From Capsaspora owczarzaki ATCC 30864 (lineage: Eukaryota; Opisthokonta; Filasterea), in contig NW_011887303.1 in the NCBI RefSeq assembly GCF_000151315.2, forward strand, positions 618,719 through 682,718: a DNA stretch of 64,000 nucleotides, read 5' to 3'. A program made the translations under genes and the position numbers. Shown one piece after another: positions 45,578 to 62,518 of the stretch. Below the pieces are notes generated by a model, which worked only from the letters and a program-made list of their open reading frames with translations, did no database searches and was not told the DNA's origin. The stretch's first letter is position 1. Each line of letters starts with the position of its first letter.

Positions 45578-46865
45578 GTATCTCATTTTTCTCGTGCGTT
45601 TCAGCCGTTGCATTCCGAAACATGCGCGGTAAGCTCTTCCCTATCGTTGGCTTGCGGACGCAGGGCGAGGTTGTCGAGGCCAACTTTGGTCAAGACCCGT
45701 TCGTGTTCGATCTAGAAGGGTACATGGAGGTACAGTTTTGTTCGACAAGACCATTTTTCTGCCTTTTTTTTTGTTTTTTGTCATCCCTGTTGTTTGTTTG
45801 TTTTTCATGCCTCATCGCACGTCGCCTGATCTTTCCCCCCTCAGGAGACAAAGGCCAAAGCCCTTGCAACCATCAAGAAGCGCACGCTTGCTGAATCCCG
45901 TCTGTTCACGAGCGCGCCTGAAAAGGCCTTCACTTCTTTAATCGCTTCCTACCTTGTCCACCACGGGTACACTGAGACTGCCCGTGCATTTGCGCAAGAC
46001 TCAAACACTGAACTTCAGGAAAGCGAGGAGTCCATCCGCAGCCGCCAACGTAAACAGTCGCGCGCGATGAAGTTCCGAGTGTGCTTGTGTTGTTGCAATG
46101 GTCTTCTGACTTTCCTAATTCCCCCTTCCATGAAAAACGGCAGATATTCGCGAACTGGTTCTTGGTGGACAAATTGACGAGAGCATCGCTGCCGTCAACC
46201 AGTTGATTCCAGGCTTGCTTGCCTCCGAGACAGAGTTGCATTTCAAGCTCAAATGCCGCAAGTTCATCGAGATGGTCAGGGCAGGTGCCACGACCTCCGA
46301 AAGTCTGATGCAAATCATGCAATTTGGTCAAGAGTTGCAGCAAATGTCCGAGGCGGAGCAAGTGGGTGCTGCCAGTCTGAAGGATCTTGAGGTCGGTTTG
46401 GAACGACACCCTTGTTGTTCGGTTGTACGTTTTACGTGCTTGTTTTGAATTTCTCCCTTTGCTCATTGGGCACGTTGTTTGGTTTTTGGATGGGGGTTTT
46501 TTTTTCCTCGGCACCACAGGACGCGTTTAGTCTGCTCGCTTACCCCGAGCCCACACAGAGTCCAGTGGCCGGCTTGTTGAATCCTGCGCAACGAGAACCG
46601 CTTGCCGATGAGCTGAATTGCACCATGCTCCGTAAAGCCCGTTGTCAAAGCTTGCAAAGTGTTTGTGCAGCAGGAATTTCGGCTCACTTTTCGCTCTTGT
46701 GCATGACCCACAGAATGGCTGAACTTGCCTCCCGTTCCTGCTCTCGAACTTGCCGTGCGACAATCCGTCTGCGTTCTCAACGAGCTGTACACCCAGGGCG
46801 TTGGCATGTCTGGCTTTGTGAGCGTGGATGACTTTGTTCCAGAGTCCAAGGCGAGCAAGCAATGA
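44899..46865 (+). CDS. RANBP9: RanBPM (RANBP9/10), SPRY-LisH-CTLH-CRA protein of the CTLH/GID E3 ligase
   Basis: RanBPM is a scaffold of the CTLH (GID) ubiquitin ligase. Exons: 44899-45161, 45242-45462, 45605-45729, 45845-46049, 46144-46391, 46520-46631 and 46714-46865, giving 441 residues. Domains in order: SPRY (about 35-200; [64 protein letters not shown]), LisH ([20 protein letters not shown]), CTLH ([34 protein letters not shown]) and CRA ([26 protein letters not shown] and the last exon). The first donor is GG|gtacgg, giving REGYIGVG. Intron 2 holds a (GTT)n tract of about 42 bases. Confidence 0.96.
45536..45577. repeat. GTT trinucleotide array in RanBPM intron 2
   Basis: About fourteen perfect GTT units directly follow a T-run; together they form an extended pyrimidine/GT-rich tract upstream of the acceptor at 45604. 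Confidence 0.9.
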
Positions 46866-47013: not shown

Positions 47014-47174
47014 TACAAATCCGATAAGGAAGTGAAACCTAGTCTGAGAAAAGCGAAAAAGCCTGCGTGGGACGTGGTTTTGATCTCAATGATACGTGAG
47101 GCAAACGTCGGCCGATAGATCTACAGCTCTTGGACTGTCCTCTAGAACTTGCTCAAATGTTTTGCTCCTCGACT

Positions 47175-49816
47175 ATGAGCATGAATGCAACAGCTACGGA
47201 TTTGGGAAAAAGTCGAGGGTCAGTCCTTGTTCGTTTTGCTGGGTCGATACGTCGCTCTGCTTTCTTCCAAATGATTACATTTCATGGTTTGCGCGGGCTG
47301 TGTAAAAAAGTCAAGACTGCGCCTGGAAAGGTCCTGTAAGTGAAAGCCAAGTCGGTTGGAATCAGTATGATAGCGCGTGTGTGTTGACGATATGGAGAAC
47401 ACAGGCTGTCTCGATCGCAGATTGGCGATGCAGAAGCACAGGCGGTTGCCAAAGCTCTCAAATTCACAGCGACAACGACTTATGTCGAGTAAGGCATATC
47501 GCTTTGACTGGTGCATGTGAGTGGGTGATTTCAGCAGCAGGCCTTCAAAGGTGCTCACGGATGGACAGTCTGAGTGAGAATCACATAAGCTGTGCAGGTG
47601 CACTGGCGATTGTGGAAGCACTTAAAATGAACACGAGACTGAAATTTCTCGAGTAAGCTGTCTCACGTTGACGGATGTGAGTGGTTGATTTCGGCGGAGG
47701 GCATTCAGAGGGCTCACGATTGGAGGGGATGGACAGTCTGAGTGATAATCGGATTGGCGATGCTGGAGCGCAGGCGATTGCTGAAGCACTCACAGTGAAC
47801 AAGACGTTGAGTGGCATCCAGTAAGGCATTTGACTTTGACTGCTGTATGGAAGTGGGTGAGAGGCAGAGGGCGTTCAGAGTGGCTCACTGATGGAGGCGA
47901 TGGACACAGTCTGAGCAACGATCAGATTAGCAATGCAGGCGCGACCGCACTCGCCGAAGCACTCAAAGTGAACGAGACGCTGACCAACCTCCAGTAAGGC
48001 ATTCGCTTCGATTGATGCGTGTGAGTGGGTGATGTCAGCAGAGGACATTTAGAGTGCTCACGAATGGACGGAATGTACAGTCTGGTGAAGAATCACATTG
48101 GCGATGCTGGAGCGCAGGCGCTTGGTGAGGCACTCGAAGTGAACACGACGCTGACTTGGCTCAAGTAAGTCCCTTTACTTTGATGCTTGGGAGGGGATGA
48201 TCTAAGCAGACGATATGAAAGCGTTCACTGACGGAAGGAGCGGACAGGTTGGACCAGAATCAGATTGGCGATGCTGGAGCGCAGGCCATTGCTGAGGTGG
48301 TCCAAGTGAACAGGACGGTGGCTGGGCTCGAGTAAGGCATCTCACTTTGATTTCAGCATAGGGCAGTTAGAGTGGCTCACTAATGGAATAAAATCAACAG
48401 TTTGAATCAAAACCAGATCGGCGATGCCGGTGTGCAGGCGATTGCTGAGGCACTCAAAGTGAACACGACGTTGAAAGAGCTCCTGTAAGCCATCTGACGT
48501 GGATGGAATGCATGCGCGTGGGTAATTACGCAGATGGTCTTCAGAATGCTCACTGATGGACAGTCTGAGCGACAATCAGATTGGCAATGCAGGCGCGACC
48601 GCACTTGCCGAAGCACTCAAAGTGAACACAGCGATGAGGAAGTTTGCGTCAGTCATCTCGCATTGAACTGATGCATGTGAATGGGTCATATGTGACAGTG
48701 AAAATGGCTCACTGATGCAATGAATGCACAGTCTGTTGAATAATCAGATTGGCGATGCTGGAGCGCAGGCGCTTGCTGAAGCACTCAAGGTGAACAAGAC
48801 GCTGACTGAACTCTGGTAAGGCATCTCACTTTGACTGATGCATGCCAGTGGGTGATGCAACAAAGGGAAGTCAGAGTGTCTCACTGAGGGATGAACAGGT
48901 TGAACTTTAATCAGATTGGCGATGTTGGAGCGCAGGCGATTGCTGAGGCACTCAGAGTGAACAAAACGTTGACTCAGCTCGTGTAAGCTACTGTGCGCGC
49001 TGTTTGTCCAGACCATTGAGCCTGGGTCAGCCATACCTTGCTACCTTCTCATTCTGCTCACCCATTGGGCAACAGTCTGTTTTCTAATTGCATTGGCAAG
49101 CTTGGTTCTCAAGCGATCGATGCGGCATGCGCAGGCAACCGCAGATGTCTGGTTGGGTAAGTTTGTTCTTGCCAACCACCGACATTGATGCTCGGAGAAT
49201 GTTCCTCCCACCGATGGAGTGGCCATACTTACACTTCGCTTGTTCATTGCTCAGCCTCAACACCCAGATCAGCCCTTTTGCGTTCTCTTTATTTCCACGA
49301 TTGGCGAGTGGTGAAGACAGTCAAGCCGTGTTCCGCATGCTGACTGGCGGGTTAGAGAATCAGCCCGCATCTCTTCCAGCACTACCAACCGAAATTGCCG
49401 AACTCATTATGGACGAGGCGCGTTATTGGCAAGGCGCGCAGCACACCAAACGGAACCGTTTTCATGTCGATACCTCCGACGGCGTTCTGACAGTCACTGT
49501 GCCTCGGAGTATGGATGGAAATTCGATCCGTGTGAAAGCAATTCAAGTGCTTCGTGACTGGACATCTAGTTTCTACAACTCCGACGACTGTGCTTTCGGT
49601 TTGACTGTCCGAGATGAACAAGGTGATGTTCAGTACGAGTGTGCTGTGCACCCGACTCTCGTCGAGTCGAACCTTGCGCGTGCGACAATCTGGCCAACGA
49701 GCCATCCTATCCTCCGACAAATGCGCGAGGGTTGGCAAGTTCAAATTCGATTCACCAGGGACAATTTGCAAATCCAATGGCTATGTGTCGAGTATGTCGA
49801 CCTAGATCTACAGTGA
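47175..49816 (+). CDS. LRR protein with F-box-like C-terminal region, family copy 1
   Basis: Thirteen exons: 47175-47335, 47405-47488, 47569-47652, 47737-47820, 47910-47993, 48081-48164, 48248-48331, 48401-48484, 48564-48647, 48732-48815, 48899-48982, 49076-49156 and 49255-49816, giving 547 residues. Ten exons are exactly 84 bases, all phase 2, each coding one 28-residue ribonuclease-inhibitor-type LRR (consensus LSxNQIGDAGAQAIAEALKV then NxTLxxL). The last exon holds a domain of about 170 residues: SLPALPTEIAELIMDEARYW (F-box-like), SIRVKAIQVLRDW, VRDEQGDVQYECAVHPTLV, and HPILRQMREGWQVQIRF. No signal peptide or TM is seen. An in-frame ATG at 47157 is an alternative start. I do not recognise the C-terminal domain. 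A cytosolic recognition or ubiquitin-adaptor role would be inference only. Confidence 0.8.
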
Positions 49817-50202
49817 TCACAAAGCGCCTCAAAGCGCGCCCTACTGTCGACCAATACATTTAAAGTTTTCTCAGCAATTTCGAAAGGCAATGTCGACGGA
49901 CGACCGGTCCACTTCGGCCTTTCAATCCAAAAAGATGACAAGTACACTACTGTAGCTCATATACGACTTGTCTGCACTTTTGTTCGAATTCGTGGACACG
50001 TTCGAACGAGCATTCTGCTGTACCTGCTCCTAAAAAATCCAAAGTTTGGTCGTGTCTCCCGCTCCGTTTTATTCACCCACTATGAGCATGACTGCAGAGC
50101 GCGATTTTGCAAAGTGCCGAGTCCAATAGGTTGAACTGAGAGTGATGCCGTTTTTGGGCGAGGTGGCAGTCTTTTCCGAAAGATTCGAAGCGTTCGTCCG
50201 CA
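49817..50202. other. Spacer between LRR copies 1 and 2, with conserved upstream block
   Basis: 386 bases. The part at 50043-50125 (including CGTGTCTCCCGCTCCGTTTT and a short ATG frame MSMTAERDFAKCRVQ) is conserved, inverted, upstream of copy 3 at 60300-60388. It is likely a shared promoter or 5' UTR. Confidence 0.6.
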
Positions 50203-51745
50203 ATGCTGTCGTATGAGCGTATGAATCAGAGACAGCGCGACTTGTATGACCAAGTCAAGAATGCGAGTGGAGAGCTCAGGTAAGAAAACGCCCCGAGTTT
50301 ATCGGAGCAACGGGCGCGTGTGTACTGATTGAACTGGAGGGACAGTCTGGACAGGAAGCAGATGCACCAAGTTGCAGCAAAGGTGATTGCCGAGGCACTC
50401 AAGGTGAACACGACGCTGACTGTGCTCGGGTAAAGGCATCTTCCTGTCGACGGATGCTTGTGGGTGCGGGTGGGTTGAGCAGCTCACTCATGAGTGCGAT
50501 GGACAGATTGGATGGAAATCAGATTGGCAATGTTGGTGCACGAGCGATTGCCGAGGCGCTCAAAGTGAACATGGGGGTGACCTTGCTCGGGTGAGGCGTC
50601 TCGCTGTGAATTGTACATGTGAGTGGATGGGTGCAGCAGAGGACATTACGAGTGCTCACTGATGGAGGGAATGGACAGTCTGCAACAGAATCAGATCGGC
50701 GACGCTGGAGCGCAGGCGATTGCCGAGGCACTCAAAGTGAACACAACACTGACTCAGTTCTAGTAAGTGGACTGATACATGTGAGTGGGTGGCTTCAGCA
50801 GAAAGCAGTTCAACGTCCTCATTTATGGGAGGGGGGGGGGAACGGACAGTCTTGGCCGGAATGAGATTGGCGATGTTGGAGCACAGGCGATTGCTGAAGC
50901 GCTCAAGGTGAACAAGACGCTGACTCGACTCGAGTAAGTTGCTGTGCATGCTGTTCGTCTTGGACATTGCGCCAGCCATTGTTACTGTGTCATCCTGCTC
51001 ACCCATTTCATTTCTCTCGACAGTTTCACGAAAAATTATATTGGCAGTGTTGCTGCTCAAGCGCTTGATGAGGCACGCAGAGTCAACGGCACGTTGACCT
51101 CACTTCAGTAGGGGGGGGGGTTTCCAGTCCTTGCGATGTACCTCCAGCCAATGGAGTGAACCCGTCTGACTGCTCCTGTGTCTTGCTTGCTCGTTTGACA
51201 GCATCGACAACCAGATAAACCCTCTGGCACTTTCCTTACTTCCACGGTTAGCGACGGCTGAAGACCTTCAGACCGTATTTCACTTGCTGATCCGCGGGCC
51301 GGAGCTGCAGGATCAATCCGCATCTCTACCAGCACTACCGGCCGAGCTTGCCGAGCGCATCTTGGACGAAGCATGTTACTGGCAAGGCGTCCTGCAGACG
51401 ATGTATACTGGTGGGCCGATCGTCACACTGCCTCAAGGCGCCGATGGCAGTTCGATCCGCGTGAAAGCAATTCATGCGCTTTGTGACAGGAGTGAAGGTT
51501 TCGACGTCACCGATAACAGAGTTTTTGAGTTAATTGTCTATGATGAGCAGGGTAACGTCCAGCTCGAAAGTGCTGTGCACCCGACTTTGCTCGATTCAAC
51601 CGTCGAATTCGTGACGCTCTGCCCAGCGAGTACTCCCATCATCCGACAAATGCGCGAGGAGTGGCAAGTTCAAGTTCGCCCCAGTGGGTCTGTGTACGAT
51701 TTGCGAATGGCATGGTTTTATGTCGGGTATGTCGAACGACTGTGA
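50203..51745 (+). CDS. LRR protein with F-box-like C-terminal region, family copy 2
   Basis: Seven exons: 50203-50279, 50346-50429, 50507-50590, 50679-50762, 50850-50933, 51024-51107 and 51202-51745, giving 346 residues. The first exon codes MLSYERMNQRQRDLYDQVKN, shared with copy 3. Five 84-base phase-2 exons carry LRRs (for example NQIGDAGAQAIAEALKVNTT). The C-terminal exon matches copies 1 and 3: SLPALPAELAERILDEACYW, SIRVKAIHALCDR, VYDEQGNVQLESAVHPTL, PIIRQMREEWQVQVRP and FYVGYVERL. It is the most divergent member in the C-terminal domain and has half as many repeats as copy 1. All junctions keep frame, so it looks intact. Confidence 0.8.
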
Positions 51746-51996
51746 TCACCAAACGCCTTTCTTGACGAATACATGGACACATTCCTTCTTCCTGAAAAAT
51801 CCCTCAGCAGCTTCGAAAGGCAGTAACTCGCTGGTCGGCGACCGGTCCACCTGGGACTTTCATTTCTCAGATTCAAAGTTTTCCATCCCACTCCTCATTT
51901 CTCTTCTCCTTCTCTATCTTCTTCCCTCCTCTTCTCCTTCTCCTTCTTCGTTCTTGCTTCCTTTTTTTCTTCCCTCCATTCTTCTCTGATTTCATC

Positions 51997-54900
51997 ATGT
52001 CGCAGTCGGACGGCGCGGGATCGAGCCGCCGCACATCCAGTCGGCCGCGCCAACGCACCGCCGCTGCCGAGTCCGCCCTCCTCTCCAGCGAGCCGGATCT
52101 TGCCGCAACCCCGCCCTCGCTCGGCACCCCGACGTCCTCGGCCCGCGGCGGCGCAGGGTCCCGCGGCTCACCACGCAGCAGCGCACCAGGCGGCTCTGCC
52201 AGCCAAACCAGCGATCGCAGAATTGATCCAGGTAAAACACAGAGAGAGAGACAGAGAGAGCAAGCGAAAGAGGGATTTTTGACAGGTCGCCCGTTTGCTC
52301 GCCTCGAGTCGCAACAACAGCGAGACCAAAAACCCACGACCGCGCCTCTCCGTCTGTGCGATCGCCGTTCTTGCATGAGAGTGCAAACAACGAACGGCTG
52401 CACACTCGCTGCAGTTCCCTCGCGGGGTTGCAGCGTCGAGCATTTGGCTGGATTTGCATTGGATTTTTTTTTTTTTTTTTTTTTGTTTGGCTGAAGTTTG
52501 CATTGATCCTTTTTTTTTTTTTTTTTTTTTTTGAATGAATGTTTGAATGACAGACGGTCGCTCGGGGCGATCGTTTGCCTCCGACATGAGCTCGCCGTTG
52601 CCGTATGGCGCAGCGAGCACACCAGTACTGAGCCAGCTTGCCACGCCGTAAGTCGCGCGCGTTCTCGTTCTCGATCTCTCGGCTGCGCTTGCTGCATTGT
52701 TGCTTCCCTGCTCAACTCACCAATCCAATCCAATCCAATCGTCGAACAGCGGTGGCTCGGGTCGCGTTCGTGCAGAGCTCGGATCGTCAACGCGCCTCCG
52801 TGCTGTCGTGACTGGTGGCCCCAGTGCCGAGGTCAGTGCGAACAAAGGCTTTTCGTCTGTTGTGCTGTATGCTCATTCCTCAACCACCCTCAATCCAACC
52901 CACAAACCTCGCAATGGCCATCACACGTACGTGCAGGGTGGATCTGACGTCAATGCTCTCCCTGGCGACCGCGCACCTGGTGACAATGCGGCGTCGCGCA
53001 CCGTCATTTGGGGAACCAATGTGAACGTCCAAGAGACGATGGAAACGTTCCGTGCCTTCCTCAACGACTTCGTTGTGCCTGACCAGACGGGACAGCCCTT
53101 CTACCTGCACGTGCTGGATCAGGTACACGTTGGCGAAAGGCCGAGTTTTGCTCTTTTTTTTTTTTTTTTTTTTTTTTGGTTTGTGTGTTTGTTTCTTACC
53201 TTTTCTGGCTCTGTTCACCACGCTTATTGCTGCCAACTGTCCTGTGCGCTACTAGATGGCTGTATCAGAAGCTCGCTATTTGAACCTGGATGCTAGTCAC
53301 TTGCGCGAATACGACTTGACGCTCTACACAAACATGTGCTCCTTCCCGCAGGAAGTGGTGCCCATGTTTGATTATGTCGTCAGCTCCCTGTCAGCGGAGC
53401 GCTTTGGCGAAGAGGGTGATGTGAACATTCAGGTAGTTGACTGCACGATTGTGATGAGAGCAAGCATGTTTTCCATCTCAATTTCTCCTCATGCAGGTTC
53501 GTCCCTTCCGCCTGGAACGTTCGATTGGTGTCCGCGAGCTGGGACCGCGCGATATCGAGGTTCTTGTCAGCGTGCAAGGCATGGTGGTGCGCACTTCATC
53601 CGTGATTCCTGATTTGAAGTCGGGTACGTCGGTCTACACGCTTTTGCGTTGCCTGTCGCCCCCCCCCCTTTTTCCGGGGTTGACTGACACTGTTTGCTTG
53701 CCTTCAATTTTGGCAGCATTCTTTTGCTGCATCTCCTGCAAGGCGACTGAGCGCGTTGAGGTGGATCGCGGTCGGATTGCGGAGCCGCTCGTCTGCAAGC
53801 GTTGCAAAGTCAGTCGAACCATGGAGCTCATCCACAACCGCTGCATATTTGCCGATAAGCAGATGATTAAGCTTCAAGAGAATCCAGGTGAGAGGTCGAT
53901 TCGATGCTGATTCGTTCAGAGTCCGTTCATCGTCTCAACTTTTTTTTTCTTTCTTTCCTTTTTGGTTCGCTTTGTTTTTGCGTTGCTTTATGTTCGTTCT
54001 TCTTTGGAATCTGAAGAAATGATTCCGGAGGGTCAGACACCGTACTCTGTGTTGATGTTTGCGTACGATGATCTCGTGGACAGCGTTCAGCCAGGTGATC
54101 GGTGAGTTTGAGTTTTGGTTTGCTCTCGTCTTTGTGCGCGCATGCATTTTCCGAGCTCACTCACCCGCTTACGCTGGCTTGGAACAGCGTGGAAGTTACT
54201 GGCATCTATCGCGCAACGCCAATGCGCGTCAATCCTCGTCAACGGGCGCAGAAAGCCCTGTTCAAAATCCACATTGATGTCATCCACTTCCGAAAGACCG
54301 ACAAGCGTCGCTTCCAGCGGACCGACACTGCCGATCAGACCGCGCCAGTCTTGTAAGACTGTTTTGCAACTGTGGTGTTGCTTTGGTTGAATCAAAGCTG
54401 TCCAGCACCCTTCTGACTGTGTTTTGTTTTTGCTGCGGATTTGTCAGAGAGGAGGACACTGAAAACGTCGTCAACTACGGTGCCAATCAAGTCGAGAGAC
54501 TCGTTGCTCTGTCTCGCACACCCGACATCTACGACCGACTGACAAAAGCGCTGGGTAAAATGACTTAGTTTGTGGCGACAGCCTGCTGTCATTCGAAGGA
54601 ACTCATCTTGTGGGGTTGTTGCACCAATCAGCACCTGGCATCTGGGAATTGGACGATACAAAACGTGGGCTGCTGTGTTTGCTGTTTGGCGGTGCTCCGA
54701 AGTCTCTAGCGGCTCATGGACGAGCGCGATTCAGGTACTTTGTCCGGGTTGATGGTTGCGTTTTATCGTTGTGAATTTGGCTCACTAATGCCTCGCCTTG
54801 GACCCGTCTTTTGTCGTTGAACAGGAGCGATCTTAACATCTTGCTTTGTGGCGATCCTGGTACCAGTAAATCGCAGCTCTTGCAGGTACAGTTGTCCCGC

Positions 54901-56623
54901 CGCACAGCAACCCCCCCCCCAAAAGAAAAAAAAAACGTAGCGTCTCACATTTGGTACATGCACCCATACTCTAGTACGTGCACAAGATTGCTCCGCGAGG
55001 CATTTACACATCAGGCAAGGGCTCGTCGGCTGTCGGTCTGACCGCCTACGTGACGCGCGACCCTGAAACTCGGCAGTTGGTGCTCGAAAGTGGCGCGCTC
55101 GTGTTGAGTGATGGCGGCGTCTGCTGTATTGATGAGTTTGACAAAATGCCTGAGGCTACCCGATCCGTTCTGCATGAAGCAATGGTACGTTGAGACTGGA
55201 TTTGTTTTTTTTTTTTGTTTTTTTTTTTGGATTGAATGAATGAATGGAACGAGGCTCTGTAACGCGGTTAACTGACCCACCCCTCCCCCCTTTATTTCGC
55301 TCCTGGCAGGAACAACAAACCATCTCCGTTGCCAAAGCCGGTATCATTTGCTCGCTGAACGCACGAACTTCGATTCTTGCTGCCGCCAATCCCCGCGAGT
55401 CTCGCTGGAACCCTCGCGCGTCCATTGTTGATAACATTCAGTTGGGCCCAACGCTACTTTCTCGGTATGTTTCACACGTGTGTCATCTTCCTCAGATGCG
55501 TTATGAGGACGCCTTTTTTTTTTGCTGATGTGCCCATTTTACCGTCCCACCTTGGATAGATTCGATTTGATCTACCTCATTCTGGACACACCGAACGAAA
55601 TTCTTGATCGTCGTCTGGCTCGCCACATTGTGTCGTTGTATCAAGAATCAGGCGAAGATCGAACTGAAGACGGCATGGTACGTGCATACGCTCACCAGCT
55701 CTTTGCTCAATGGTCTTGGTGCGACGGACTGACTTTTGATGACTTTTTTTTTGTCTGCTCGGATTGCTAGTCACTCGAAACTCTGAGCGAGTACATTTCC
55801 TACGCACGCAAGCACTTCAACCCGGTCCTGACGAACGAAGCAGCGCTCTTGCTCGTTGCTGGCTATGTTGGTATGGTGTTTTTGAAAGCCTCTCCCATGC
55901 TCGGCATGACTGACTGAGGTTACTCACCCAACACGTGTGATGCTTGGCTCCGATCCTCAGAGATGCGCAAGGCTGGTGGAAATAAGCACACTATTACCGC
56001 CACGCCCCGACAGCTCGAATCGCTCATTCGCATTTCTGAAGCGCTTGCCCGCATGCGCTTTTCCGAGACTGTCGACGAGGGCGATGTTCATGAAGCCTTG
56101 CGGTGAGCGTTGGATGTGTGGGCGCTTAAAGGTCGTTGTTGAAGGCTCACTTCTTTTTCTTTTTCTTTTTGTTTTCTTTTTTTTCTGAAAATGACAGTCT
56201 GGTGCGAGTTGCGCTTCAGCAGGCAGCCACAGATCCATCGACCGGTTTGGTCGATATTTCTCTGTTGACCACTGGTCAGAGCACATCGGCGCGCAGCGTC
56301 ATTGTTGCTGTTTCCGAAATCATGCGTGAAATTGTGTATGATATGAAGGAGCCGGCCATGACCACCCATCAAATGATGACACAGGTGCAAAGCCGCACAG
56401 ATGTACGTTCGCTTGCTGTTGTTGCTGTTGTTGTAGGTGTTGTTGTTGCGCTCTGTTAACCGGTACTCACATTTTGTTGTATGTTTTTGCATCTGCTTGT
56501 TGTTACTGTCACCTATTCCGGCAGATTATCGTCAATCCCGAGCTGATCAGTGCCGCAGCGTCCATTCTTCAACGCGACGGTGTCCTGTTATTCTCCGAAG
56601 ATCAGAGAATTCGTCGTTTGTAA
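51997..56623 (+). CDS. MCM4: MCM4, replicative helicase subunit
   Basis: MCM4 is part of the MCM2-7 helicase in the nucleus. Nineteen exons (51997-52231, 52554-52647, 52750-52831, 52937-53122, 53256-53432, 53497-53623, 53717-53887, 54017-54101, 54188-54352, 54448-54554, 54632-54734, 54825-54885, 54975-55184, 55310-55464, 55560-55677, 55771-55870, 55961-56102, 56198-56402, 56525-56623) join in frame to 873 residues (human 863). A Ser/Pro-rich N-terminal tail is the usual kinase-target region. The zinc motif is FCCISC...CKRCK. Walker A is [14 protein letters not shown], Walker [10 protein letters not shown], sensor 1 ILAAANP and the arginine finger [30 protein letters not shown] and VDISLLTTG mark MCM4 rather than a paralogue. 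Introns 1 and 4 hold T-runs of 20 or more. Confidence 0.98.
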
Positions 56624-56861
56624 TCGAATGGCTGCAGTTTCCCTCCAGTGCTTTTGTTTTCTATTTGCTTTCGATGCTTTGTTTTTCTCTTCTTTTGAGC
56701 TTTCTTGTTTCATGTCGAGTTTGCGATGGTGATGTCTTTTTCCGTCGAATGAAGTTTGTCTTCACGTTGGTGTGAATGTGCAAGGTTTTTATTTTGGTAG
56801 TCGTGGGGAAACGACATCGGGAATGGTGGTACAGCACTGGGAGGTCGGTCAAAAAGCGTGT

Positions 56862-58872
56862 TTACTTCTTGCGAAGACGACGCTCGGTACGCTGGTCGAA
56901 TTTGCGCATAGAAGCGTCCTTGATCGGCACCAACGGACCGACGTGCGGCAATCGAGTGTGCTTGCCATGCGACGTATCGGGCGTATAGGTGACCTTCACC
57001 ACTGGCAGTTGGACATCTGAGTAACACAATAATTTGAGTGTGCGTGCCACCGCCAGGCTGGCTCAACAACAACAACAAACCAACAAAAAAAAACTATGCT
57101 CCTAAACGTACTTTCGCGGGCGAAGGCTTTCTCGACAGAGTCGTCGTGGAAGGTTTGGCAGAAGCTGGCTCCCACAATTCGCACGCCAAATTCGTTGACA
57201 AAGAGGGCAGTTGAGAAGGATCTTGCGTACAAGTCGCTGATGATTGGAGAAACATGACGAAATACGCCAAGTAAGCAAGGCTCCAGACGCAGCTAGGAAC
57301 ATACAAACCAAACGCGCTCCTTACATTCGATTGTAGATCGATTCTGCCTGCATGCCTAATGGTGCGGCATGCTCGAGCAACAAGAAAGCAACTCGGTGGT
57401 ATCCAGTATCCTTCAGAGGCAGCGCTTGCACGTATGGATAGATGGTGTTGCCAGAAGAAATGCCGGCTTCAGAAATGTCCGCGCTGCCAACAAACCGATC
57501 AATAGCAACGGGATGAGATGGACGAAAAAGCGGAACGTGCGCTCCACAGGATTCAGGCAAACTTACACGAGCCAGTGCATGTATTGGTGGTTGGCAGACG
57601 AAATGTTGCTATCCAGACCAACCATCATGAGTGTATAGTATTTGCCACTCTCGGGCTCGAACGTGACAGTCGGAGCAGAGCTCGTCTGATCGAAGATTGA
57701 AGAAGATTTGGCAGGGCGAGAAAGGTCAACAAAACAAATTCACCAATGTGGCCGCACAATCCCCCTTCATCAGGGCATAGACGCTGTGATTGGTTACCAA
57801 GCCAGCAGGAACCAGGTTGCCGTGGACAATAGCGGTCTCCGGGTAGGTGACCTTGAGGTACCGAGTGAGCTTGGGCACCTTCTCGGCCAAATCGGTCCAG
57901 ATGCGGTTGTGAATGCCAAACGTCAAGGTAAGCTGGCGTGAAATGGAGTTGGCCCACGTTGTTTGAGTGAGTGGCTGGTCGAATGGGACGATTTCTGCAA
58001 GACAAAACGAAAACACGAGTCAACAAAGTCAGATCGTTGGTTGGTGTTGGTGGGGGTTTTTTTGTTGCTTTTTCGTCAAGTCATGTTGCACGATGTCCTA
58101 CACAAATGTCTCCTCAGCTCAATGCCCTCTTCTTTCTCACCTTGACCAGTGCGTGCGCGAAGCTCGCGCTCGGGGTCCGACCTGAGCTCACGAACCTGCT
58201 CGCGCTCGCGCTTGAGGCGATCAAAGAAGGCCGGCGTCTGCACGATTGGGCACTTGCGCAAACGCGTGCGTGCGAGTCCTGGCAGCACGACGTACAGGCC
58301 CATGTAGGTCGATCCAGGCGGGAGCTGGTCGAGCGGCGGCACGTTGTTCAGCGGATCGACGGGGTCTGGCGTGATGGCGATCGGCTGCGGCCTGCGCACG
58401 GCGTCCAAGTACGGCTTGTGTGTAGTCATTGTGCGCACTGCTTGCCGCAGCATGAGCGATGTCTGTCAATCGTCGACCACAAGCAAAGAGCAAGGTTAAG
58501 GACGGATGGTCTACACAACACTCCACCAGCTTTCCCCCAAGCCTTTTGCGCTTTCATCCACGAGCTGCTTTCTGCTCAGGCCACACTTTCATTCATCGAC
58601 CCGGTGGAAGGGACGCTGAAGAGGGGGAAAGTGGTGGTAGGGGAGCTGAACAATGGACAGATCTCGCGTTTTTTTGCCATTTCCCTCAATGCATGTGCTC
58701 TCACTCAAGTCTCACTCCAACGCGCAGTCACTCCAACTCGGTCACTCCAACTCGGTCAACAGCAAGTCATGCCATATCAGTAAGCAAGTGGCAGGTGCTC
58801 TGATGCGAGTCGCGTTCGGGGTTGGTGCTGCTCGCTCACCGTTGACCGCGTCTGCTGCACTGCCGACAACAT
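56862..58872 (-). CDS. MRPL38: Mitochondrial ribosomal protein mL38 (MRPL38, PEBP fold)
   Basis: mL38 is a PEBP-domain protein of the mitochondrial large ribosomal subunit. Exons (minus): 58872-58840, 58462-58141, 57994-57744, 57685-57567, 57483-57325, 57236-57112 and 57016-56862, giving 387 residues (human 380). The first 11-codon exon (MLSAVQQTRST) joins in phase to TSLMLRQAVRTM, a good basic presequence without acidic residues. The PEBP core: SGKYYTLMMVGLDSN, HQYMHWLVADISEAG, GNTIYPYVQALPLKDTGYHR and VAFLLLEH, then FVNEFGVRIVGASFC. The N-terminal extension with RLKREREQVRELRSDPE and the basic C-terminus (FDQRTERRLRKK) fit the ribosomal protein rather than a cytosolic PEBP. It is convergent with MCM4. 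Confidence 0.9.
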
Positions 58873-59001
58873 GATCAATGCAAATATACTGTACATTGAA
58901 TACTGAAATTGCTTGAAATTTAATACAGTATGGGTTTTTTCGATGCTAGTTCTTCTGGGAATCGTCCGTCCAAAGGATGTGGTGCGTTGCAAAGATTGCC
59001 A

Positions 59002-60233
59002 TTAGACATATCCGACATAAAGCGATTCAAATAGCACATCGAGGGAAAACTTGCTGGCTCGAACTTGAACTTGCCAACCCTCGCGCATTTGGCGGAGGAT
59101 GGGATGACTCGCAGGCCAGATTGTCGCAAGCGCAAGGTTTGATTTGACGAAAGTCGGGTGCACAGCACACTCGTATTGAACATCACCTTGTTCATCCTGG
59201 ACAGTCAAATCGAAAACACAGTCGTCGGAGTTGTCGGGACGCTCGCTCCAGTCACGAAGCACTTGAATTGCTTTCACACGGATTGAATTTCCTTGAGGCA
59301 CAGTGACTTTCATAATCCAGCGGGGATCATCGATATGAAAATTTCTTCGTTTGGTGTGCTGCGCGCTTTGCCAGTATTGCGCTTCGTCCATGATGAGTTC
59401 AGCAATCTCGGTTGGTAGTGCAGGGAGAGACGCGGGCTGATTCTCCAGCTCCAACCCGCTAGTCAGCATGCGGAACACTTCTTGGATGTCCTCAACACTC
59501 GCAAATCGTGGAAGTAAGGAAAACGCAAGAGGGTTGATCTGGCAGTTGATGCTGAGCAATGAACAAGCGAAGTGTAAGTATGGCCATTCCGTCGGTGAAA
59601 GGAACATTCTCCGAGCATCAATGGCTGTGATTGGCAAGAACAAGCTTACAAATTCTCAGAGCTGCATTTGCCGTTGCGTATCTCATAGACCGCTCGAAAA
59701 ACACGTTTGTCAATGCAATTATAAAATAGACTGTTGCCCAATGGGTGAGCAGAATGAGAAGGTAGCAAGGAATGGCTGACTCAGGCTCAATGGTCTGGAC
59801 AAACAACGCGCACAGTAACTTACCAGATCTCCTTCACCGTCTTGTTCACTTTGAGCGCCTTAGCAATCGCCTTCGCTCCAGCATTGCCGATCTGATTATA
59901 GTCCAGACTGTCCGTCCAGTGAGCAATCTTCACGCCCTCTACGGGTTCACCCACTCACATGCATCAAAGTAAAGGGACTTACTTGAGCACAATCAGCGTC
60001 GTGTTCACTTTGAGTGCCTCAGCAATCGCCTGTGCTTCAGCGTCGCCAAGCAGGTTGGGGTCGTTCGCGTGGTAGGGGTCGAGTCTGAAGATTCAGTTCG
60101 TCAGTACACACGCGCGATCAGACTTTGTTCCCAATCAACTCGGACTTCTCTCTTACAAGAGCGTTCCACTCGCATTCTTGACTCTGTCATACAACTGGCG
60201 CTGTCTCTCAGTCATACTCTCATAGGACAGCAT
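59002..60233 (-). CDS. LRR protein with F-box-like C-terminal region, family copy 3 (inverted)
   Basis: Exons (minus): 60233-60157, 60084-59983, 59907-59824, 59730-59650 and 59551-59002, giving 297 residues with all phases correct. The first exon codes MLSYESMTERQRQLYDRVKN, like copy 2. There are only two LRR exons (102 and 84 bases) and the 81-base exon shared with copy 1. The last exon is close to copy 1: FSLLPRFASVEDIQEVFRML, SLPALPTEIAELIMDEAQYW, SIRVKAIQVLRDWSERPDN and HPILRQMREGWQVQVRA. The last two introns are almost base-for-base the same as those of copy 1 (48983-49075 and 49157-49254), which points to a recent inverted duplication or gene conversion. Confidence 0.8.
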
Positions 60234-60619: not shown

Positions 60620-61540
60620 TCAGTGAGACCACATGGGAGTACCGCTCTGCGATGAATGCACCTTCTCCGCATCGCTGGGGCGATGGTGCCTGCACTTTTT
60701 GAACAACCAAGCAATCACCGACACAAATGTGGCGCAGATGCCGGCAAAACCACCCAGAGAACCGAGCAGGTCGACCCAGGTGAAGCTGTAGTACTCTTGC
60801 GTGACTTGGACATCAAAGTTGTCAATGACGGCAAACAGGAGGTACGGGAATGCGCTGTGGTCGGGCGGGTAGGAGATGTTGCGGTGCGAACTGAACACTC
60901 TAGAGGATGAGTGCACTGTCGTGACGGATTCGCCGCCAACGTCGGAGCGATCGTGACGCTGCCGATAGAGCGACATGAATGTTGTTTGAGGAAGGGGAGC
61001 ATATGTGGCTTGGCTACCCTGACGAAGCGGCGAAGGCTCGTCAAAGTAGGTGTACACTTGCAGCGAGTCGAGCGTGGGAAGCACTCCATCCGCTGGGAAA
61101 ATGCTGATGAGCATTCCAGCGAATCCAGAGTCAGATCGTTGAGCGACCAGGTTGGGCGCAGTGAATTCAATGCAGGAATGGCCGCCGTAGAGTTGACGGT
61201 TCTCCACCGTCAGGTTGGCATTGTTGAGCCCAGCAGAAGGCGGGGCCAGGCAATCGAGAGCCGTATTGTCGATGGTGATGCTGCAGGTATTGTTCCAGTC
61301 AACAATCATGTTCGCGAAAGAGAAGACGGGAGACGTCTGCGGCGTGCACACTGCAATCTTGGGGAAGGGAAAGTCCGACACCTCGTCGACAAACAAGCGG
61401 TTGGAAGGGCTTGAATAGGCGTCGCGGCACTGCTGGATTTGCACGGCCGCGTATGCCGCAAATGAGGCAATCGCAAAAATCAATGCAAGGTGCAGGACGA
61501 CGCGCTGGGGCGTGGAGAACTTGCGGAAGAGATTGCACAT
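60620..61540 (-). CDS. Two-TM membrane protein with a DEG/ENaC-like layout
   Basis: A single coding exon of 306 residues. TM1 is at about residues 12-35 (VVLHLALIFAIASFAAYAAV), followed by FPFPKIAVCTP, which resembles the FPxVTxCN motif after TM1 of amiloride-sensitive channels. An ectodomain of about 210 residues has at least five Cys and several N-glycosylation sequons (for example NNTC, NLT, NIS). TM2 is near residues 265-290 (VDLLGSLGGFAGICATFVSV), with the GSLGG turn that recalls the ENaC pre-TM2 region, then a basic tail. It is much shorter than known ENaC/ASIC subunits (500 or more residues), so the family link is tentative. An acceptor at 61551 suggests a 5' UTR intron. Other two-TM families (P2X and similar) remain possible. 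Confidence 0.6.
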   Translation of the reverse strand: MCNLFRKFSTPQRVVLHLALIFAIASFAAYAAVQIQQCRDAYSSPSNRLFVDEVSDFPFPKIAVCTPQTSPVFSFANMIVDWNNTCSITIDNTALDCLAPPSAGLNNANLTVENRQLYGGHSCIEFTAPNLVAQRSDSGFAGMLISIFPADGVLPTLDSLQVYTYFDEPSPLRQGSQATYAPLPQTTFMSLYRQRHDRSDVGGESVTTVHSSSRVFSSHRNISYPPDHSAFPYLLFAVIDNFDVQVTQEYYSFTWVDLLGSLGGFAGICATFVSVIAWLFKKCRHHRPSDAEKVHSSQSGTPMWSH

Positions 61541-62518
61541 GAGGGTGAGAACTGAAAATGGATGTTTTTTGTTTTTCGTTTCTTGTTTTTGAGGTTTGCT
61601 ACGTCTCACAGGCGACTACCGCAAATCTGCGGCGGTTGGCGGGGGGCCCGGGCGGTGAAACATCGCAGACACAGCATCCAGACATGCAGGCACACAAGCA
61701 CACGAAGGGTGAGCGACAGACGGCATGCGGTATCTCAGCCAAATGGAGCGGGAGAGCGCAAACACCCATGCCAACAATTCGCACAACAATGGGGAAAAAA
61801 AAAAAAAAAAAAACTCAAAAATACCCACAAAGTAGATGTGGAAAAATCAAAAAGAAAAAACTGGATTCTTGACCTAAATATGGGCCAGCAAAGATCTAGC
61901 GAAAGCTGCCACACACAAGTTGGCAAGTCGATGTGATTGAGCGAGAAGCGACGTGCAAAAAATCACAAACCGAGCGGATGCGGATGCCGGCAAAATCCCG
62001 TTGATGAGAATTTTGTTTGCTCGCTCGCCCTCATCTCCCAACAGAACGATCTGGTGAATTGCGTTGAACATGTTGCATTCGTCGAGCAAGTGCACATATA
62101 CGGGACAAGAGACGATAGCCAATGCCTGTCCTTTCGCAAGCTGAATGAAATTTTCCGCGATTGTGAGTTTCAATCACGAAGGATCCATCGTACGCTCAAG
62201 GAGCTCATTGGATTGTCGAGCAGTGCATGTACCGTTGCAGAAAACACGATCAACACTGCCCTTCCTTCAACAACAACAGCAGCAAGCAAGCAAGCAAGCA
62301 AAATCACAAAGCGATCCGTCAAAAGCAACCTGACGGCAAAAGTTTGCCCTCTCACAATTCGATCGAAAATCCCTCCAACGCTCTGCTGTACGCATGAGCA
62401 GGTCTTGATGGTGGTGCTTATCAGCCTCATACATGTCTCAGCTCAATGCAATACAGCCCCACTGTTCCTTTTTTTGATATCCATATTTTTTTGTCTCAGA
62501 ATCCTCCGCACTTCACTG
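61541..62518. other. 978-base divergent intergenic region
   Basis: Between the starts of the two-TM protein and the flavin oxidoreductase. An A-run lies at 61796-61813 and a GCAAGCAA repeat at 62281-62300. A long frame runs in phase into the oxidoreductase from about 61937, but it has no family resemblance and opens with TTG, so I do not treat it as coding. Confidence 0.4.

Follow-up and report, generated by a model that had tools for sequence, protein, structure and literature searches.

What kind of protein is encoded by genes that join a run of leucine-rich repeats (LRRs) of variable length to a single conserved last exon? The question is raised by three genes in the 64,000-nucleotide stretch of Capsaspora owczarzaki DNA analyzed here (the window), which an earlier note had taken for a three-member family carrying an F-box-like C-terminal domain that it did not recognize.

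Gene Models in the Window

The window holds three intact gene models, each with a single open frame and with GT-AG borders at all introns. The exon order is shared by all three and comprises a short N-cap exon, the LRR exons, a cap repeat and the single conserved last exon. Copy 1 (47271-49816, plus strand) has 10 LRR exons and the cap repeat and encodes 515 amino acids, copy 2 (50203-51745, plus strand) has four and the cap repeat (346 amino acids), and copy 3 (59002-60233, minus strand) has two and the cap repeat (297 amino acids). Compared with the last exon of copy 1, the last exon of copy 3 shows 74% identity and that of copy 2 shows 51%. Copy 1 had been delimited previously as 47175-49816; its end was retained, while its start most likely lies at 47271, within an N-cap exon of the kind found in 22 of the 23 modelled genes. 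The LRR exons kept in the window scored at least 11.8, compared with -19.2 for the best unrelated AG-84-GT stretch, and the N-cap, LRR and last exons are predicted to be spliced into one transcript. The features are as follows.

47271..47335, plus strand: copy 1 N-cap exon (MITFHGLRGLCKKVKTAPGKVL), from the gene model
47405-47488, 47569-47652, 47737-47820, 47910-47993, 48081-48164, 48248-48331, 48401-48484, 48564-48647, 48732-48815, 48899-48982 (span 47405..48982), plus strand: copy 1 LRR exons, ten of 84 nt, all phase 2, from exon scoring and Pfam LRR_6
49076..49156, plus strand: copy 1 degenerate cap LRR exon, 81 nt, donor GTAAGT
49255..49816, plus strand: copy 1 conserved last exon with helical linker, LPALPTEIAELIMDEARYWQ helix, probably beta-rich part and stop, from sequence comparison and the gene model
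50203..50279, plus strand: copy 2 N-cap exon (MLSYERMNQRQRDLYDQVKNASGEL), from the gene model
50346-50429, 50507-50590, 50679-50762, 50850-50933 (span 50346..50933), plus strand: copy 2 LRR exons, four, from exon scoring, the gene model and Pfam
51024..51107, plus strand: copy 2 cap LRR exon, from exon scoring and the gene model
51202..51745, plus strand: copy 2 conserved last exon, from sequence comparison and the gene model
60157..60233, minus strand: copy 3 N-cap exon (MLSYESMTERQRQLYDRVKNASGTL), from the gene model; best match in the N-cap search
59983..60084, minus strand: copy 3 first LRR exon, 102 nt with an insertion, from the gene model
59824..59907, minus strand: copy 3 second LRR exon, from exon scoring and the gene model
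59650..59730, minus strand: copy 3 cap LRR exon, from the gene model
59002..59551, minus strand: copy 3 conserved last exon, from sequence comparison and the gene model

No RNA family exceeded its gathering score within the window. By hydropathy, neither a membrane segment nor a signal peptide was found in the three window proteins, in which the highest 19-residue value was 0.99-1.21.

Variation of the Repeats

The repeats are 28-residue units of the LxxLxLxxN form and belong to the ribonuclease-inhibitor/NLR class (LRR_6, E 4e-48 in copy 1 and 6.7e-21 in copy 2). Among the best 60 PDB matches of copy 1, ribonuclease inhibitors stood at the top, NLRP chains were frequent and one GALA chain appeared, together with 5irl_A, which is labelled 'Uncharacterized protein' and which we take to be NOD2.

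The earlier note had described LRRs that change quickly next to a constant C-terminus, and this description is borne out by the wider comparison. The number of scored 84-nt LRR exons ranged from 1 to 11 per gene across 22 genes, the search outside the window being for exons of 84 nt. In the pair L056 and L057, eight units and the last exon agree, and the difference consists of 819 bp of extra units (about five repeat units). Similar runs of repeats also occur inside otherwise different arrays (L046/L054 and L041/L060). Intron lengths were taken with gaps of at least 200 nt excluded, as these probably hide an unscored exon.

Entropy was calculated on 146 of 170 repeats after removal of 10 duplicates and 14 low-scoring units. 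It reached 3.6-3.75 bits at the exposed positions 1, 2 and 25, compared with 0.12-0.99 bits at the framework positions 0, 3, 5, 20, 23 and 26. The pN/pS ratio was 1.15 at exposed codons (bootstrap 0.89-1.55) and 0.42 elsewhere in the repeats (0.34-0.51), and synonymous change was likewise raised at the exposed sites. Such a ratio, near 1, would fit either diversifying selection or a relaxation of constraint equally well.

The Last-Exon Domain

The last exon encodes a domain of about 150 residues, in which one LP..EI..LI.DEA.YW helix is followed by a probably beta-rich part. From 43 translations, an alignment of 40 members was made, leaving out L017 and L026, whose proteins equal those of L018 and L027, and L072, which has no stop within its stretch. 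The alignment contains 11 invariant columns, and the last-exon pN/pS of 0.65 indicates moderate constraint only. No consistent match was found in Pfam, NCBIfam or the PDB sequences, nor was there one to an enzyme family in Pfam or NCBIfam, in agreement with the earlier note, which had not recognized the domain. The domain is uncatalogued, and the Pfam version searched has no model for it.

Several weak matches of the 40 members were judged to be chance. In Pfam, these were DUF6894 in five members (best E 0.0082), NifQ in one (E 0.00082) and 13 further families in one member each, including HSP20 (E 0.15). In NCBIfam, six families were each matched by a single member (best E 0.012), and the PDB profile search gave three matches, all with E 1.3 or worse. 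The searches of viral and prokaryote collections for relatives yielded 114 and 122 pattern matches, none of which was confirmed. A similar domain, of the form 'LPxEI...IxD.A.YW plus beta part', is presumably present in fungal proteins.

The resemblance to an F-box, on which the first description of the domain relied, holds for one helix and does not extend to a family assignment. LRRs and F-boxes are often paired in proteins, and ALPTEIAELIMD resembles F-box helix 1 with a pairwise E of 0.0074, better than all nine controls (eight shuffled and one reversed, 0.07-0.68). If the last exon were a true, very divergent F-box, the proteins would serve as adaptors of SCF ubiquitin ligases, with the LRRs as substrate receptors, as in FBXL proteins. 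However, the F-box profile (PF00646, 43 positions) matched 28 places genome-wide, none overlapping a family exon, and in hhalign the family met the F-box over 12 columns, in helix 1 only, with a probability of 5%, compared with 98.9% among F-boxes themselves. Nothing in the family alignment corresponds to the second half of the F-box motif (V..W), and the motif would follow the LRRs, whereas the F-box usually precedes them in FBXL proteins. The F-box is also absent from the 15 Pfam families with a match in at least one of the 40 members (E of 10 or less), a search in which most hits with E above about 0.1 are removed by HMMER's filters. Assignment to the F-box family is rejected on the profile searches and the profile-profile comparison, and the SCF reading with a very divergent F-box is regarded as improbable.

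Family Size Across the Genome

The family greatly exceeds the three members first described. The last exon has 127 matches in the genome, 99 of them of at least 390 nt, and all contigs from C1 to C17 are represented. A search with a distant member recovered 98 of the 99 long matches, again as long matches. The N-cap, LRR and last exons occur together in 22 of 23 modelled genes, and for 26 of the 99 last exons the 5 kb upstream contain neither an N-cap nor a scored LRR exon among the matches listed. The C. owczarzaki genome holds a family of about a hundred of these genes. The genome also has two Runt matches, and Runx is reported in Capsaspora (PMC6040629). No earlier description of the LRR family was found in the portions covered of the Capsaspora literature other than the genome paper, including PMC3870316, PMC4007536, PMC3482391, PMC11797021 and PMC6040629.

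Such an expansion might be mostly neutral or selfish, the product of an internally repetitive gene prone to duplication and recombination; the proteins would then have no part in recognition, and their variable positions would simply be free of constraint. The exposed-site pN/pS, which is not clearly above 1, is consistent with this, as are the 28 of 127 matches shorter than 390 nt, four pairs of adjacent match pieces resembling broken copies, and inverted duplicate pairs of recent origin within the family. However, a stop was listed in six of the 99 longer matches in the first search and in none of those six when the distant member was the query. Constraint is kept at the non-exposed repeat positions (0.42) and in the last exon (0.65), and a fixed N-cap and C-terminus persist through many diverged copies. 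A neutral or selfish expansion is considered unlikely.

The N-Cap Exon and a Kinase Class

The N-cap exon is not confined to genes of the window type. Its 105 genome matches lead to the last exon in 57 cases, to a receptor-like kinase domain in 30 and to neither in 18; random placement gave 2.6 and 1.7 for the first two, with sizes assumed for C16, C18 and C19 (for C16 in the LRR/upstream test). The kinase matches used were those of about 39% identity or more, from 138. Among the matches listed, the 5 kb upstream of 33 of the 73 long kinase matches hold neither an N-cap nor a scored LRR exon, and 27 of 150 LRR matches lead to neither last exon nor kinase.

The catalytic loop of the kinases is of the non-RD type (54 words vs. 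1), and 25 of the 29 kinase matches to which an N-cap exon leads have this loop. Only two genes of the kinase type were read at the sequence level. The kinase frame of L075 looks disrupted; L074 has four LRR exons and, 208 nt further on, a frame with kinase domains. The best PDB relatives of this one frame by match score were 2qkw_B (1.7e-51), BRI1 (7.4e-50), FERONIA and IRAK4 (4.4e-43); 2qkw_B is named only 'Protein kinase' in the PDB listing and is presumably Pto. In Pfam, the frame, which starts behind the LRR exons of this single gene, matched kinase-related families only; the animal IRAK/Pelle proteins also have a death domain. Judged by these matches, the kinase domain of L074 is nearest to the RLK/Pelle/IRAK kinases. 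No kinase domain was found in the Pfam scan of the spliced window copies 1 and 2.

The N-cap exon and the LRR exon type that the two classes have in common, and the lack of any consistent match of the last exon to an enzyme family, would suit a further reading, in which the window class acts as decoys or regulators of the kinase class. Its LRR recognition would be the same, but its tail would not be an enzyme and would either compete with the LRR-kinases or serve as a scaffold for them. The tail is, however, conserved as a domain, with its 11 invariant columns in 40 members, beyond what a decoy would need, and we consider this reading improbable.

Proposed Function and Its Significance

We put the chances at about even that these genes encode intracellular LRR proteins for recognition, expanded into a large repertoire in which the output is either the uncatalogued domain or the non-RD kinase. 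The fast-changing repeat arrays, together with the same front end on an immune-type kinase elsewhere, look like a recognition system that lacks the receptor parts usual in animals or plants. A horseshoe would be built from the N-cap and the ribonuclease-inhibitor-type repeats, and the ligand would be contacted by the strand positions on its concave face. Because the typical repeat is one phase-2 84-nt exon, movable without breaking the frame, the ligand range could shift quickly through the gain, loss or exchange of repeat exons. The output would depend on the C-terminal module, which would be an RLK/Pelle/IRAK-type non-RD kinase in one class and the domain of about 150 residues in the window class, the latter most likely acting by binding a fixed partner. 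The proteins are probably cytosolic, and a role in defense or self/non-self recognition is suggested.

The fullest version of this proposal is advanced tentatively and is considered less likely than not. It holds that a single-celled relative of animals has well over a hundred cytosolic receptors for immune or self/non-self recognition, kept as a recombining repertoire. In these receptors, ribonuclease-inhibitor-type LRR exons would be joined to exchangeable C-terminal outputs, either a non-RD IRAK/RLK-like kinase or a new domain that binds a partner, and this intracellular recognition system would have evolved without NACHT, TIR or death domains.

If the proposal is correct, a unicellular genome close to animals would hold a diversified intracellular receptor repertoire built from modular single-repeat exons and two alternative signaling tails, which would bear on the origin of recognition repertoires before multicellularity. 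It would also offer a compact setting for following how repeats are gained, exons exchanged and outputs swapped among near-identical genes. The last exon itself adds a domain with about a hundred genomic copies to those that Pfam, in the version searched, does not model.

Comparison With Known Systems

FBXL and GALA proteins resemble the window family in their LRRs and in the short LP-x-EI helix, and the PDB matches of the copy 1 repeats include a GALA chain. In contrast to FBXL proteins, the window family has no F-box beyond helix 1, and the order of the parts is reversed relative to the usual FBXL order. The choanoflagellate Kinase TLRs and Kinase TIRs carry TIR domains, and the Kinase TLRs also a membrane segment, neither of which was seen in the Capsaspora genes read; nothing equivalent to the non-kinase tail is named in their published account.

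The RLK/Pelle/IRAK kinases, including the plant LRR receptor kinases, are similar to the Capsaspora kinase class, both in the plant receptor kinases and IRAK4 found among the best PDB relatives of the L074 frame and in the non-RD loop. Unlike in plant LRR receptor kinases, the Capsaspora LRRs are of the ribonuclease-inhibitor type, the window genes lack a kinase, and hydropathy gives no membrane segment or signal peptide in the genes read. The LRR class itself is that of the ribonuclease inhibitor and NLR LRR domains, as seen in both the PDB matches and Pfam LRR_6. In contrast to NLRs, in which an NTPase domain precedes the LRRs, no NACHT or other NTPase family is found in the spliced copies 1 and 2, in which only LRR families reach the cut-off. 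In the window genes, the N-cap exon is followed immediately by the LRR exons, so that the N-terminal region amounts to a short cap (22-26 residues), and the outputs of the Capsaspora family are C-terminal.

Window genes and surroundings

Three genes of the family lie in the window (C12:618719–682718), at the following window coordinates:

47271–49816, + strand: copy 1, N-cap exon (a short exon 5' of the LRR exons), 10 LRR exons, cap LRR exon and conserved last exon; 515 aa
50203–51745, + strand: copy 2, 4 LRR exons plus cap; 346 aa
59002–60233, − strand: copy 3, 2 LRR exons plus cap; 297 aa

All three models are intact, with GT-AG at the internal splice sites and every frame open up to a single stop. 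The LRR and cap exons are 84 nt long in 16 of 19 cases and the others measure 81, 102 and 81 nt; because all these lengths are multiples of three, the gain or loss of a whole repeat leaves the frame intact. The LRR exons kept here scored at least 11.8, against −19.2 at best for unrelated AG-84-GT stretches of the window. By 19-residue hydropathy the three proteins show no obvious membrane segment or signal peptide (highest values 0.99–1.21), which suggests a cytosolic location. A LisH-domain gene (45830–46174) is positioned immediately upstream of copy 1 and an MCM helicase gene (53458–55190; Pfam MCM_OB and MCM) between copies 2 and 3. The open frame at 60623–61615 (− strand), reminiscent of DEG/ENaC channels, has no Pfam match at E up to 0.001.

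The same anatomy was found when 20 further genomic loci were modelled with their upstream DNA (n = 23 with the window copies). The N-cap exon, with a consensus near MLSYESMTERQRELYDQVKNASG, is present in 22 of the 23 genes; these 22 carry between 1 and 11 scored LRR exons, with a median of 7, and introns shorter than 200 nt between LRR exons (n = 128) have a median of 84 nt and a range of 62–119 nt.

A large dispersed family

The family is real and large, and the three members counted in the earlier note need correction. In the genome searched (27.46 Mb, 29 contigs), whose two Runt-domain matches are consistent with Capsaspora owczarzaki, 127 places match the last exon of copy 1 with E no higher than 0.001. 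Of these, 99 span 390 nt or more; they are spread across contigs C1–C17, 49 on the plus and 50 on the minus strand. The most divergent member sampled (36% identical) gave 122 matches. The long ones among them overlap all but one of the 99 (98), missing a weak match on C1, so the set looks closed. A stop is listed in six of the 99 with the copy 1 query and in none of the same six with the divergent query. Four pairs of adjacent pieces have the appearance of broken copies.

The copies are dispersed with mild clustering, the median nearest-neighbour distance being 52 kb versus 98 kb under uniform placement, and 12 copies lie within 5 kb of another versus 3.5 expected. Two inverted pairs of near-identical genes, one about 18 kb apart (C8:471652+ and C8:490478−) and one about 48 kb apart (C12:93738− and C12:45556+), mark recent segmental duplication. 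No prior description of the family was found in the literature searched, a scope outside which the Capsaspora genome paper falls.

The last-exon domain and the F-box question

The last exon was described earlier as an unrecognised, F-box-like domain, and the first part of this description stands. Among 40 members, Pfam and NCBIfam each gave scattered weak matches and nothing more, the best match among PDB sequences was no better than E 1.3, and no relatives were found in the viral and prokaryote collections. The alignment of these 40 members has 11 invariant columns and a mean column identity of 61%, and the second half of the domain is predicted, from sequence, to be beta-rich.

If the last exon were a divergent F-box, the proteins would be F-box adaptors. 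When the last-exon profile was compared with that of eight F-boxes from this genome, the probability was 5% over 12 columns only (ALPTEIAELIMD), F-boxes against F-boxes reaching 98.9% as a positive control, and none of the 28 places found by the F-box profile overlaps a family exon; the F-box assignment is thus unsupported. What survives is the likeness of a single helix, which appears somewhat above chance since eight shuffled controls and one reversed control all stayed below 1%. Two of the 28 F-box places have a family last exon upstream on their own strand, C6:1087924–1088025 at 2.2 kb and C5:1646728–1646835 at 1.5 kb. The former sits in a separate 482-residue frame with no LRR seen by eye, and therefore looks like a neighbouring gene.

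A second output, the kinase class

The family gains in interest from its connection to a kinase class by way of the common N-cap exon. Of the 105 genome matches of the N-cap exon, 57 are followed on their own strand by a last exon within 8 kb, 30 by a listed kinase match (about 39% identity or more, the best of 138) and 18 by neither, random placement giving expectations of 2.6 and 1.7 for the last exon and kinase, respectively. An initial search gave 1647 LRR exon candidates. Of the 150 scored LRR exon matches, 77 lead to a last exon within 4 kb, 46 to a listed kinase and 27 to neither. At these 27 places (e.g., C8:204956–206015 and C15:630956–631502) the LRR exons are of the family type, and a third C-terminal module may follow them.

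Six of the 48 N-cap matches without a last exon were examined in sequence (L073–L078). In L074 (C2:2630900–2634900), four LRR exons are followed, 208 nt further on, by an open frame of 1101 residues containing three kinase matches, apparently an unusual tandem-kinase output; its best PDB matches are 2qkw_B (1.7e-51), presumably Pto, together with BRI1, FERONIA and IRAK4. L075 combines five LRR exons with a kinase frame that looks disrupted, and L077 and L078 have LRR exons. No scored LRR exon follows the N-cap exon in L073 or L076; in the latter, a long open frame that looks retroelement-like comes next, and the locus is perhaps a family gene struck by an insertion.

The non-RD motif FH[LF]DLKTDNV occurs 54 times in the genome, 53 of them inside listed kinase matches, and its RD form once; it is present in 25 of the 29 listed kinase matches reached from the N-cap exon. 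The kinase query gave 138 matches; of the 84 listed, 73 have a length of 700 nt or more. Among the matches listed, 73 of the 99 last exons and 40 of these 73 kinases (30 of the 40 strongest, 10 of the 33 others) are preceded within 5 kb by an N-cap or scored LRR match. Part of the kinase family, mostly more distant members, may thus lack LRRs or have LRR exons that went unscored.

Evolution of the repeats

The suggestion that the LRR part changes over a fixed C-terminus proved a good one. Among 146 core repeats, entropy is 3.6, 3.63 and 3.75 bits at exposed strand positions 1, 2 and 25 and 2.44 bits at exposed position 24, versus 0.12–0.99 bits at framework positions 0, 3, 5, 20, 23 and 26; the expected ligand face is hypervariable. 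Over 58 nearest pairs (identity 85 to 99.9%), exposed codons have a pN/pS of 1.15 (bootstrap 0.89–1.55) and the remaining codons one of 0.42 (0.34–0.51); the value of the exposed codons is reached by 3.6% of random four-position sets. For the last exon, pN/pS is 0.65. Alternatively, the expansion of the family would be largely neutral. Positive selection at the exposed positions is not proven, because synonymous change is also raised there (pS 0.239 versus 0.143 and 0.157).

Repeat gain is directly visible in L056/L057, two genes on C8 that lie in inverted orientation some 18 kb from each other and have identical last exons; here eight repeat units match at identity 1.0 (two decimals) and additional units in L057 total 819 bp, about five repeats. 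Exchange between arrays is suggested by a three-repeat run common to L046 and L054 (C10 and C17; identities 0.92, 1.00 and 0.87) and by two repeats common to L041 and L060 (both C14; 0.99), most remaining repeats of these arrays being less similar or having different nearest relatives. In the alignment, different tails are combined in the last exons of the C15 neighbours L020, L021, L032 and L038, a pattern that resembles gene conversion inside the exon.

Proposed mechanism and comparison

The genes share one anatomy, and the family has two outputs. We infer ligand binding, signalling and, possibly, a role in defence or self/non-self recognition. The N-cap and ribonuclease-inhibitor-type LRRs would form a horseshoe that binds a ligand in the cytosol on its concave face; the ligand would differ gene by gene because exposed residues and repeat numbers do. 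The C-terminal module would pass the binding on, through a non-RD kinase in the kinase class and, in the window class, through a conserved domain that matches no enzyme and whose probable role is to recruit a fixed partner. Alternatively, the class without a kinase would be a decoy or regulator. For choanoflagellates, PMC6040629 reports that NLRs with death or CARD domains were not found and that TLRs, Kinase TLRs and Kinase TIRs were.
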